Below are positions 1,126 through 41,529 of a stretch of 64,000 bases of DNA, one piece after another. A program made the position numbers and the translations under genes. Numbering within the stretch: the first letter of the stretch is position 1; every line of letters begins with the position of its first letter. Source of the stretch: Trigonopsis variabilis (lineage: Eukaryota; Ascomycota; Trigonopsidomycetes; Trigonopsidales; Trigonopsidaceae); NCBI GenBank assembly GCA_003707065.3, contig PPXM03000004.1, forward strand, positions 186,001 to 250,000, written 5' to 3'. The notes below the pieces were generated by a model. The model was not told the DNA's origin. It did no database searches and worked only from the letters and a program-made list of their open reading frames with translations.

Positions 1126-2724
1126 CTACTCAGCCTCATACTCTTCGTAGTCAACAGCCTCTTCTTCTTGAAAACTCTCGTCTGCTTCTGCGTTTTGATA
1201 TTGTTGATCTAAAATTAGTTAGAAAGAAGCTCTGGACTGTATACTCACATCGAGCAATAAGATCTTGCAGGTTACTTTCAGCCTCTGTGAATTCCGTTTC
1301 ATCCATCCCTTCCTGAGTATACCAATGCAAGAAGGCTTTTCTGCGAAACATAAGCTCGAATTGGTTGCTCGTCCGTGTAAATAATTCCTGGATAGCGGTA
1401 GAATTGGCGATAAAAGTTGCGGCTTTTTCGCCATCCTTCGGAGGAAGATTACAGGCAGAACTAGAGAGTTAACAAGAGGAAGAAAAAAAGCTCCCTTACG
1501 TATAGATGTTATTTGGAATCCATTCAACAAAAGATTCACTATGTTTCTGATGATAATTTGCTATTAGCGTCTCGACTTCCTCGGTGGACACCTTTCCTCT
1601 AAAAATGACCGAAGCAGTAAGATAACGACCGTGAGTAGGATCGCACGCAGCCATAAGATTATGTCCATTAAAGAGTTGTTGAATCAACTCTGGAACTGAC
1701 AGGTTTTGAAAAGCTTTAGAACCTAGAAGGAGTCAGTGAAAAACCAAGCGAGCTTACTCACGAGGAGAATATAACGGCGCGTAACCAACAATAAAAAAAT
1801 GAAGTCTGGAGAACGGAATGAGATTCACAGCCAACTTCCTTAAATCTCCGTTCAATTGACCAGGAAATCGTAATGATGTGGTCACACCGGACATTGTCAA
1901 TGCAATCAAGTGATTTAGATCTTCTATTTTTGGCGAGGGAATCTTCAAGGTTTGCTGCGCGATTTTGAACAAGGCTTCATTGTCAAAGCAAAAGGTCTCA
2001 TCGGCATACTCTACTAGCTGATGAAAAGATAAGACGGCATTATATGGCTCTGTGAGGGTATCACTCACCATGGGACTAGGCAAGACGGAATGGGTGGCGA
2101 GCATTCGATCTGGATACTCATCTCGAATGTGAGAAAGTAATAGCGTTCCTAATCCACTGCCTGTGCCTCCTCCGAGACTATGGACAAACTGGAAACCTTG
2201 AAGGGAATCGGACTGTTCAGCTTCTCTTCGAACAACGTCCAGTATAGCATCCTTTAACTCCGCTCCCTCGGTATAGAATCCTGTAGCCCAGTTGTTTCCT
2301 GCACTGCTATTTCCAGAGATGAAATTATCCGGATTGAACAAGTTTCCCAGTTCCCCACCTTTGATATGATCCAAGGTACCGGGCTCTAAATCGACTAAGA
2401 CCGCTCGAGGAACATATTTTCGAGTGCTCGTAGCATCAAAAAACACATCAAGCCGTTCAGTAAGTTCTTGAGGGGAGTTTTCAGATGCTACTCCATTATT
2501 ATCCAACTCATGGTCTGCCAGAATGGTTTCCCAGAACGAGCTGCCAATCTGGTTCCTGTTCGTTAGCGGTCTTCTTCCAAATAGATTTTATAATGCCTCA
2601 AATGCATGTCTATTCACTCCTCCTTCTTGAGTTAATCATCACTCACCCTGGTGATTAGTCCATCGTTCGTCTTCGAGCTCAACGTACCTGCTTGTCCACA
2701 CTGAATAGTAATAATCTCTCTCAT
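1126..2724 (-). CDS. Divergent beta-tubulin paralogue with a 1-nt exon
   Basis: Exons are 2688-2724, 2647 (one base), 1762-2555, 1500-1722, 1249-1460 and 1126-1208. They join in frame to 449 residues, the usual beta-tubulin size. Diagnostic parts are the MREI start, [11 protein letters not shown], the GTP-binding GGGTGSG loop, [39 protein letters not shown] and an acidic tail ending EEYEAE. It is clearly beta by the Lys in the DLRKLAVN loop and by the MREI start. It departs from normal beta in many places. The N-terminus reads IQCGQAGNQ, where beta has IQAGQCGNQ, so the usual Cys12 is Ala. [14 protein letters not shown] replaces FRPDNFVFGQSGAG. Ascomycetes normally have a conserved beta-tubulin, so this is probably a second, specialised copy. 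It would polymerise with alpha-tubulin. Introns of 39-40 nt are typical; the second is 91 nt. Confidence 0.9.
2647..2647 (-). other. Predicted single-nucleotide exon of the beta-tubulin paralogue
   Basis: Exon 1 ends GCA G before donor GTACGT. Exon 3 begins G AAC CAG after an acceptor ACAG that sits just behind a CTAAC branch site. Joining these directly loses the frame. Between them lies CTAATCACCAG, then G, then GTGAGT: an acceptor and a donor one base apart. Using that G gives GCA GGG AAC CAG, i.e. the A-G-N-Q of the conserved tubulin N-terminus, and makes the whole 1350-nt CDS frame-consistent. Flanking introns are 40 nt (2648-2687) and 91 nt (2556-2646). Confidence 0.75.
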
Positions 2725-6974: not shown

Positions 6975-7715
6975 ATGAAAAAGGCTTTTGATTTTGTTAA
7001 CAGGGTAAGGAGTGCAAATACTTTAAATAAGCTAATTGAAAGGTTTGGCAAGATTTTATAAATCTCAGTGGGATGGAACCCACTCTATTAGATAAGGTCC
7101 GTCTCTAGATGACAAACTGGACAACTAACATTTAGCTTAAAGTCGTGAATGCGACACCTGGCTTGGTACAGTTAGAGATGCCAGTGGAAAAAAAGCACTG
7201 TGTATGGAAAAGAACATGGAGATCCTGCTAATTGAGGTCTAGAATCGTCTCGATATTGTTCATGGAGGAACAATTGCTTGCATAGGTATGTCTAAATATA
7301 AAATCCGGTGTTTAAGTGCTGACTATATAAGTTGATTTGGCTGGTTCATTGGCTCTGAGTTCCAAGGGAATGTTTTCTACTGGGGTCTCGACTGATCTTA
7401 ATATTACTTATATTGGTTCCGGTGGTAAAGTGGGTACGTATTACAGATGATTCCAGAATTAACAATGTTAGGAGATAAACTGTTTATTGTAAGTCTAATA
7501 TGTCTGTCTATATTAACCGCTAAGGAAAGTCGACTGGATCGAATTGGTCGCTCTTTGGCCTTTACTTCGGTTTCCTTCTATTCTAGCAAAGACAAGTCTT
7601 TAGTAGCTAGAGGAAGTCACACTAAATACATTGCTCATGCAATGTCAGACGTAAGTTGAATCCGATTCTGAGCTGACTCTATAAGAAACGGAATGAGTTT
7701 CCACTGAAAGAATAG
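6975..7715 (+). CDS. Hotdog-fold acyl-CoA thioesterase (THEM2/ACOT13-like)
   Basis: Eight small exons (6975-7004, 7043-7096, 7136-7201, 7243-7285, 7332-7433, 7472-7488, 7525-7650, 7686-7715) join in frame to 155 residues, the normal size for this single-domain family. The product contains KKHCNRLDIVHGGTIA followed by VDLAGSLAL, the hotdog HGG signature with the catalytic Asp. TDLNITYIGSGGKVGD and GRSLAFTSVSFYS follow, as in human THEM2. Family members hydrolyse medium- and long-chain acyl-CoA to free fatty acid and CoA, often in mitochondria. Introns are 34-48 nt. One exon is only 17 nt. The donor after exon 2 is GTCCGT, a weak form, but reading phase and similarity support it. The gene is broken so often that no long uninterrupted reading frame exists. 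Confidence 0.88.
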
Positions 7716-35311: not shown

Positions 35312-36704
35312 ATGACTATTATCAAACGAGGTCTCCAAGGGCTTTCAAAGGCACCTGTTCGTCGGGTAATCAGTCCCAACAGTCAATTGAGTGTCCCTCA
35401 TCTCCGTCTTGCTTCATCCCAAGGAGGCGTTGCCAAGATGACAGTCCGGGATGCTCTCAATCAGGCCATGGTGGAAGAAATGGACCGCGATAGTGATGTT
35501 TTTGTGATGGGTGAAGAAGTGGCCCAATACAATGGTGCATATAAGGTGACCAGAGGTCTATTGGATAAATTTGGAGATAAACGAGTAAGTTAATCTTGAG
35601 AGTTTCGGAACCAGATTGGAGAGGGGTACGCTGGCCACGGAGAGCGGGGCGCCGGTGGGGCGTGGATGACATCTGTCAGCTCTAGCACTCAATTTTCGGT
35701 TCGACAATAAGTTAATTCAAACATTTATTTAGTTTTATTATTTTAAAATATTTATAAAAGCTTTCGAGCTCGAAAAACACAAGGGGAAGATGGTTATGGA
35801 CTGATGACGTCTGTTCCAGCAAGATCAATAAAAGAGAAAACTAATACGATAGGTCATTGATACACCTATTACCGAAGCTGGATTTACTGGTCTCTGTGTT
35901 GGTGCTGGATTAGCTGGACTGAAGCCAATTTGCGAGTTCATGACTTGGAACTTTGCGATGCAAGCCATTGATCAGATCATCAACTCATGTGCAAAGACAT
36001 TCTACATGTCGGGAGGTCAGCAGCGATGTAGCATTGTTTTCCGTGGTCCAAATGGAGCCGCTGCTGGTGTTGGCGCCCAACACTCTCAGGACTTTACCCC
36101 ATGGTATGGTTCTATTCCCGGTCTTAAGGTGGTATCACCTTATTCATCTGAAGACGCCAAAGGTCTTCTCAAAGCTGCCATTCGAGATCCGAATCCTGTG
36201 GTCGTTCTTGAAAATGAAATCCTCTACGGCGAGGCTTTCCCAATGAGCGAAGAGGCTCAATCCCCCGACTTTGTCATTCCTATCGGCAAAGCCAAGATCG
36301 AGAAAGCTGGTAAAGATATTACAATTGTTGCTCATTCTCGAAATGTTGAGTTTGCTCTTGGTTCTGCCAAGATCTTAAAGGAACACCATAATGTTGAGGC
36401 CGAGGTCATCAATGTGCGATCCATCAAGCCCCTTGATACTGAGGCAATCATCAAGTCAGTCAAGAAGACGAACCGCATTGTTACCGTTGAGTCAGGTTTC
36501 CCAGGCTTTGGCTTTGGCGCCGAGCTCGCTGCTCTGATGATGGAGACTGAAGCTTTCGATTACCTCGACGCTCCTCTCGAACGAGTCACTGGTGCTGAGA
36601 CTCCTACTCCTTATGCCATCGAGCTCGAAAACTTCTCATTCCCAAACCCTGACGTTGTCACCAAAGCCGCTCTTAAGGCATTGTATCTGGACCAAGGCCA
36701 GTAG
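35312..36704 (+). CDS. PDB1: Pyruvate dehydrogenase E1 component subunit beta, mitochondrial
   Basis: Two exons (35312-35584, 35853-36704) join to 374 residues. The first 40 form a mitochondrial presequence rich in Arg/Ser (KRGLQ, RRVISP, RLASS). The mature part has [18 protein letters not shown], the thiamine-diphosphate contact region [67 protein letters not shown] and [14 protein letters not shown], then [14 protein letters not shown]. With the alpha subunit it decarboxylates pyruvate and passes acetyl to E2. The single intron is 268 nt, six times the local norm, and contains a GC-rich block (about 35619-35667) inside AT-rich sequence. Confidence 0.97.
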
Positions 36705-40592: not shown

Positions 40593-41529
40593 ATGCCCAG
40601 AGGACCGTGAGTATTGAAAGACGCCGAAGCATCGAATGATTTTTGTTGGATTGCATAATATAATAGAGGACGACCTATGGAAATGTCCTTGATCCACAGA
40701 TATCCGCTGCATTCGGCATGGTTTGACAATGAAAGCTGACCATTTTAGTAAGAAGCATCTTAAACGTCTTGCCGCTCCCAAGCACTGGATGCTCGACAAA
40801 TTGTCGGGCACCTATGCTCCTCGACCTTCCCCTGGTCCTCACAAGCTTGGAGAATCTTTGCCTTTGATTGTGTTTTTGCGCAACCGCCTCAAGTACGCTC
40901 TTAACGGCCGAGAAGTTAATGCTATCGTCATGCAACGACTTGTCAAGGTTGATGGTAAGGTCCGAACTGATGCCACCTTCCCTGCTGGATTCATGGATGT
41001 CATTTCTCTTGAGAAGACTGGCGAGAACTTCCGTCTTGTCTTTGACACCAAGGGTCGTTACACCGTCCACCGTATCAAGGATGAGGAAGCCACCTATAAG
41101 CTCGGCAAAGTCAAGCGAGTTCAGCTCGGTAAGAAGGGAATCCCTTACTTGGTCACCCACGATGGCCGGACAGTCCGTTACCCCGACCCTCTCATCAAGG
41201 TCAACGACACCGTCAAGATCGATCTTGAGAGTGGAAAAATCACTGATTTCGTCAAATTTGAAACCGGTAACCTAGCTATGATTACCGGAGGTCGCAACAT
41301 TGGCCGTATCGGTATCATTACTCACCGTGAACGTCATGAGGGTGGCTTCGACATTGTCCATGTCCGTGACAGCCTTGGAAACTCTTTCGCTACTCGTCTT
41401 AGCAACGTCTTTGTTATCGGCGATGGCCCCAAGCCTTGGATCTCTCTTCCCAAGGGCAGAGGTATTAAGCTCTCGATTGCTGAGGAGCGGGACCACCGAC
41501 GCGAATTGGCTTTACAGGCCCGAGCTTAG
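40593..41529 (+). CDS. RPS4: 40S ribosomal protein S4 (eS4)
   Basis: Two exons (40593-40606, 40749-41529) join to 264 residues, as in other eukaryotes. The first exon supplies MPRGP; the 142-nt intron right after the start is typical of fungal ribosomal protein genes. The protein shows [35 protein letters not shown], the S4-type RNA-binding segment, and the KOW motif near [16 protein letters not shown], then [16 protein letters not shown]. Codon use is strongly biased, consistent with heavy translation. It is a structural protein of the small subunit. Confidence 0.98.

Follow-up and report, generated by a model that had tools for sequence, protein, structure and literature searches.

Results

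The window (the whole 64,000-nt stretch of Trigonopsis variabilis DNA analysed in this study) carries on its minus strand, at 2724..1126, a beta-tubulin paralogue with a spliced length of 1,350 nt and a 449-aa ORF according to our splice model, in which five introns are removed (2687-2648, 2646-2556, 1761-1723, 1499-1461 and 1248-1209). Exon 1 (2688..2724, 37 nt) holds 12 codons and the first base of codon 13, and is placed by the splice model, by the intron phases and by the N-terminal match to tubulins, which is free of gaps in the alignments shown. Intron 1 (2648..2687, 40 nt, phase 1) begins at CAG/GTACGT (the slash marks the splice site), contains the putative branch site CTAAT with branch A 2655, and ends in CAG. 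What follows as exon 2 (2647..2647) is 1 nt, a G which is the middle base of Gly13, and it is the only choice that gives CGQAGNQ with canonical introns. Intron 2 (2556..2646, 91 nt, phase 2) begins at AGG/GTGAGT, contains the putative branch site CTAAC (branch A 2563) and also ends in CAG, while exon 3 (1762..2555, 794 nt) opens with the third base of codon 13, followed by AACCAG (Asn14-Gln15). The remaining parts, likewise on the minus strand, are intron 3 (1723..1761, 39 nt, phase 1, GTGAGT), exon 4 (1500..1722, 223 nt), intron 4 (1461..1499, 39 nt, phase 2, GTAAGG), exon 5 (1249..1460, 212 nt; exons 4 and 5 both as given by the splice model), intron 5 (1209..1248, 40 nt, phase 1, GTGAGT) and exon 6 (1126..1208, 83 nt including the stop TAG), which encodes the acidic tail.

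Codon 13 is therefore assembled from one G each of exons 1, 2 and 3 (positions 2688, 2647 and 2555), with introns 1 and 2 splitting the same codon (Gly13, G/G/G) first in phase 1 and then in phase 2. The layout is of the type AG-N-GT, CAG/G/GTGAGT at 2650-2641, with a single base directly between AG and GT. An earlier note on this DNA had described at this place an acceptor CTAATCACCAG, a single G (2647) and a donor GTGAGT, and these are present at the coordinates it gave; its statement that inclusion of this G restores AGNQ and the frame of a 449-residue tubulin holds in the splice model, which yields CGQAGNQ exactly.

The identity of the protein is well supported, with the Pfam Tubulin model PF00091 scoring 201.6 bits (cut-off 33) on the first 278 residues of the paralogue, and with PDB beta-tubulin chains matching it over residues 1-442. 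Residues 9-17 are aligned with no gap in the five alignments shown, which are the best 5 of 170 PDB matches. A chain of 5mjs, which we take to be a fission yeast tubulin structure, is 67% identical to the paralogue over the first 278 columns. A fungal source of the DNA is likely from the top PDB matches, from the shortness of the introns and from neighbouring genes of the sterol methyltransferase and STL11 types. All of the beta-tubulin hallmarks are present (the MREI start, GQ(A/C)GNQ, GGGTGSG, the acidic tail and the full length). The paralogue has Cys9/Ala12 (window 2700-2698 and 2691-2689, minus strand) where the compared beta-tubulin chain has Ala9/Cys12, and His168 (2092-2090, minus strand) where that chain has Phe. 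Because of these departures at conserved positions (9, 12 and 168), the paralogue may be a specialised isotype.

For the region between 2724 and 2554, all single introns and all intron pairs of at least 25 nt with GT-AG, GC-AG or AT-AC ends were tried as parses. The frame is kept by 13 single introns (six GT-AG and seven AT-AC), none of which gives the exact conserved N-terminal protein and motif, while among the 286 frame-keeping two-intron parses exactly one yields the conserved protein, namely the pair flanking G2647. When two-step GT-AG/GT-AG excisions were considered, nested ones included, 2 of 1,273 were exact, and these are the same intron pair removed in both orders. The six GT-AG single introns in frame run from donor 2701 or 2683 to 2574, 2571 or 2556, so the claim of the earlier note that no other canonical splice pair keeps the frame was wrong, even if none of the six restores the motif. 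Base 2647 is thus required for frame and motif together; in-frame alternatives do exist, and the nearest of them carries an inserted Thr (AG-T-NQ).

Splice-site strength was judged against a training set of 37 predicted introns of the window lying outside the tubulin gene, none longer than 60 nt and each flanked on either side by a coding-like exon of 30 nt or more; these are the 45 better-supported introns minus three tubulin introns and minus five introns longer than 60 nt. Within this set intron 1 takes percentile 46 for its donor, 43 for its branch site and 62 for its acceptor, the corresponding values for intron 2 being 57, 76 and 22. Both introns flanking G2647 therefore score within the range of the 37 other, predicted introns of the window, and branch sites are present in both, as the earlier note had said.

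Site 2647 ranks first among the 376 AG-N-GT sites on both strands of the window by the sum of acceptor, branch and donor scores. When the 132-nt segment was dinucleotide-shuffled 20,000 times with its ends held constant, an internal AG-N-GT of any kind arose in 17.1% of the shuffles and one plausible in all three signals in 0.45%; the observed score sum was reached in none of the 20,000. In the real sequence of the window, 13 of the 376 sites are plausible (six with N = G), site 2647 being counted in, and from this the expected number of plausible AG-N-GT sites per intron interior is 0.0070, or 0.0032 with N = G. The string YAGGGTRAGT occurs once in the window (at site 2647) against 0.33 expected, and at least once in 30 of 100 shuffles, and is therefore unremarkable alone; what stands out at 2647 is its strength combined with the branch site, and its placement. 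When introns 1 and 2 were compared with the rest of the window DNA, only short similarities were found, the best being 13 nt (E 0.064).

The gene finder was written for this analysis and had no minimum exon length. Its first run over-called introns and merged genes, giving also exons of 1 nt (15131) and 0 nt (55931/55932), so the statistics were taken only from a stricter run and from models trained without the tubulin gene. The conservative run predicted 22 genes and 73 introns in the window, 45 of the latter having a coding-like exon of 30 nt or more to either side; the length of these 45 is 29-47 nt in 40 instances and 129-315 nt in five. Of the 57 internal exons in that run, G2647 is the only one of 1 nt. 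Models trained without the tubulin gene chose the one-base exon again, in both length settings; it was also chosen in the first and in the conservative run, although their seed sets contained intron 1 and that choice is consequently not independent. When one or both introns were forbidden, the finder score fell by a modest 2.7-6.6 log units, and under these restrictions the replacement path still treated G2647 as exonic four times out of four in the short-intron setting and once out of four in the all-intron setting. As the finder is crude (besides the spurious 1-nt and 0-nt exons, it placed a false intron, 1591-1547, inside tubulin in both the first and the tubulin-excluded run, and in the all-intron setting of the latter the gene start was mis-set), the support that it lends to the exon is weak. 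It also predicts a 7-nt exon at 21290-21284 on the minus strand, between introns 21326-21291 and 21283-21240.

If the exon were skipped through the canonical 132-nt intron (2687-2556), a stop would follow after 34 aa. Stops come after 41 aa when intron 1 alone is retained, after 13 aa when intron 2 alone is retained and after 30 aa when both are. Since every one of these forms truncates the product, correct splicing is all-or-none for the protein, and the products of skipping and retention are predicted to be null for tubulin. The competing 132-nt intron is of equal strength by score, with 15.9 against 15.4 for intron 1 and 16.4 for intron 2 (training median 14.7). The argument that 132 nt is too long for one intron here was considered and rejected: the intron of RPS4 (40607-40748, plus strand) is 142 nt and that of PDH E1 beta (35585-35852, plus strand) 268 nt, far above the 29-47 nt into which most introns found in the window fall, and both are confirmed by comparison of the spliced protein with solved relatives, the junction being ungapped. 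Length is therefore no argument for two introns, and intron 2 with 91 nt is itself outside the range of 29-47 nt that holds for 40 of the 45 better-supported introns. In neither the 142-nt nor the 268-nt intron is there an AG-N-GT so placed that each part would have about 30 nt or more.

Relatives were sought in viral contigs, in which no tubulin was found, and in genome contigs, which gave four distant tubulins, none of them a close relative; codon 13 is uninterrupted in all four, but the sample is biased, since GQ(A/C)GNQ(I/V)G, one of the two patterns used to find them, spanned that codon. Two of the four (L001:4001-4825 and L002:4001-4834) are intronless and 54-55% identical to the paralogue. 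Both contigs are binned as bacterial, L001 (72 kb) in a Methylococcaceae MAG and L002 (1.55 Mb) as Polyangia, and their tubulins could be either bacterial tubulins or contamination; the other two look like eukaryotic contamination.

Discussion

We consider it probable (approx. 0.84) that this is an intact but divergent paralogue of beta-tubulin in which two ordinary U2-type introns split the codon of Gly13, leaving its middle G as a constitutive one-nucleotide exon. That this is the only exact canonical parse is a property of the DNA, while its use in the cell is something that we infer; the one-nucleotide exon which the earlier note proposed is the best-supported reading of the sequence.

The most serious competitor is that there is only one canonical intron, 2687-2556 (132 nt), and that a base has been lost at its junction, be it by a mistake in sequencing or assembly or by a genuine lesion, with the internal AG-G-GT present by chance. 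Such an intron has strong canonical ends (15.9 against the training median of 14.7), long introns of 142 and 268 nt are present in the window, and the missing base would adjoin a G. However, the error would have to fall in the short span of codon 13 and leave the 449-aa frame otherwise intact, and in the window the stop-to-stop ORFs that reach 200 aa, 25 in number and admittedly a selected set, amount to 36,804 nt of open frame. In addition, a plausible AG-N-GT able to rescue the frame arose by chance in only 0.45% of the shuffles and an equally strong one in 0 of 20,000, and we regard the deletion as quite unlikely. A single canonical intron 2683-2556 with donor TAC/GTTGAG has GT-AG ends and keeps the frame (450 aa), adding a Thr between Gly13 and Asn14. 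Its donor, however, scores -3.2, under all 37 training donors (minimum 1.9), and lies only 4 nt from the far better CAG/GTACGT; the inserted Thr lowers the Pfam tubulin score from 201.6 to 193.8 bits (a loss of 7.8), and no residue is found at its position in the five PDB alignments shown (the best 5 of 170 matches) or in the four fetched relatives, which form the biased sample described above. This intron is thus extremely unlikely to be the one in use.

The extra G in GCAG-G-GAACC can be taken either as the first base of intron 1 or as the last base of intron 2, so that a single non-canonical intron, GT-CA (2687-2557) or TA-AG (2686-2556), gives the same mRNA. As mRNA and protein are then identical to those of the one-nucleotide exon, cDNA alone cannot discriminate between them, and a read mapper would probably place junction reads over one non-canonical intron. 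For the same reason, the junction GCAGGGAACCAG, which the earlier note suggested as a check, cannot prove the exon. To our knowledge neither GT-CA nor TA-AG is a standard spliceosomal intron class, and since fully canonical sites are available in the same stretch, we judge this explanation very unlikely. In a nested spliceosomal twin intron (stwintron), the inner intron splits the splice signal of the outer one and not a single exonic nucleotide remains; stwintrons are numerous in some fungi and likewise need two ordered reactions, as described in the accessible part of the literature on them. Among the 1,273 GT-AG two-step excisions, however, no nested one gives the exact protein, which comes from the consecutive pair only; we give a stwintron next to no chance here.

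Returning to the one-nucleotide exon, acceptor 1 and donor 2 overlap in the few bases CAGGGTGAGT (CAG/G/GTGAGT), and their simultaneous use is probably impossible, which suggests that the introns would be removed sequentially. The stepwise removal suggested in the earlier note is workable on paper in either order. If intron 1 were removed first, donor 2 would still read CAGG/GTGAGT, because exon 1 likewise ends in CAG, while if intron 2 were removed first, acceptor 1 would read CACCAG/GGAACC. As for origin, following what Nelson and Syed suggested for CYP621A, one base may have been lost at an existing splice junction, after which a cryptic AGGGT within the intron may have been recruited.

The closest known case is CYP621A of Fusarium, where a one-nucleotide exon is reported for 20 orthologues, with 18 SRA reads; the paper describes it as the first one-nucleotide exon in a fungal gene and proposes a base loss followed by adoption of a cryptic AGGGT (PMC12940212). 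The tubulin gene closely resembles CYP621A in being a nuclear fungal gene with an exon G, predicted in the case of tubulin, in the form AG-G-GT (AGGGT), in the position of this G as second base of a Gly codon that belongs to a conserved motif, with phase 1 upstream and phase 2 downstream, and in the length of the joint intron (139 nt for CYP621A in F. graminearum, 132 nt for tubulin). Unlike CYP621A with its 20 orthologues and SRA reads, the tubulin case belongs to another gene family, concerns one gene and is known here from DNA (PMC12940212).

In Arabidopsis APC11 the exon base is A, located 333 nt into a 422-nt intervening stretch, and substituting that base in a GFP reporter gave the proof of the exon (PMC4674806). 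Both genes have a constitutive single-base exon between GT-AG introns that is required for the frame, predicted in the case of tubulin, while APC11 differs in its base A and in being an unrelated gene of another kingdom (PMC4674806). The one-nucleotide microexon of VPS55 in land plants shares with tubulin the GTRAGT donor and the single-base exon, predicted in tubulin; it was overlooked by annotation, and in contrast to tubulin it lies in a plant gene, is supported by RNA-seq and RT-PCR and is widely conserved (PMC8831610). Stwintrons are similar in that two ordered splicing reactions take place within one long intervening sequence, but a stwintron leaves no exon base and its inner intron splits the splice signal, which is not so at the tubulin site; placozoan mitochondrial cox1 with its one-base exon is an organellar case (both as far as the accessible literature describes them). 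The earlier note spoke of very few genes and named APC11; with VPS55 (PMC8831610) and CYP621A (PMC12940212), more genes are known than that. The tubulin exon is therefore probably rare and not unique, joining nuclear one-nucleotide exons already described. No tubulin with a one-nucleotide exon was found among the matches listed in the open-licence literature and, as far as that literature reaches, tubulin would be the second fungal nuclear gene family with such an exon.

One-nucleotide exons mark the lower limit of spliceosomal exon definition, and annotation software misses them. If the exon in tubulin is real, a second fungal family with the AG/G/GT Gly layout of CYP621A would suggest a recurring route and not isolated freaks, and further such exons would be hidden in genes filed as frameshifted. 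To speculate, the one-nucleotide exon might act as a built-in on/off switch for tubulin, with the ratio of stepwise to one-step splicing (through the 132-nt intron, with skipping) setting the amount of protein, and tubulin and CYP621A might together represent a repeated fungal route to AG/G/GT Gly-codon exons; we hold this combined idea to be unlikely. The short flanking sequence would also make a compact reporter for sequential splicing.

A smaller observation concerns another part of the window. At 7004 on the plus strand, upstream of a TOR-like gene, the sequence TTAACAG/G/GTAAGG is another AG-G-GT with fair scores, 7th of the 376 sites.
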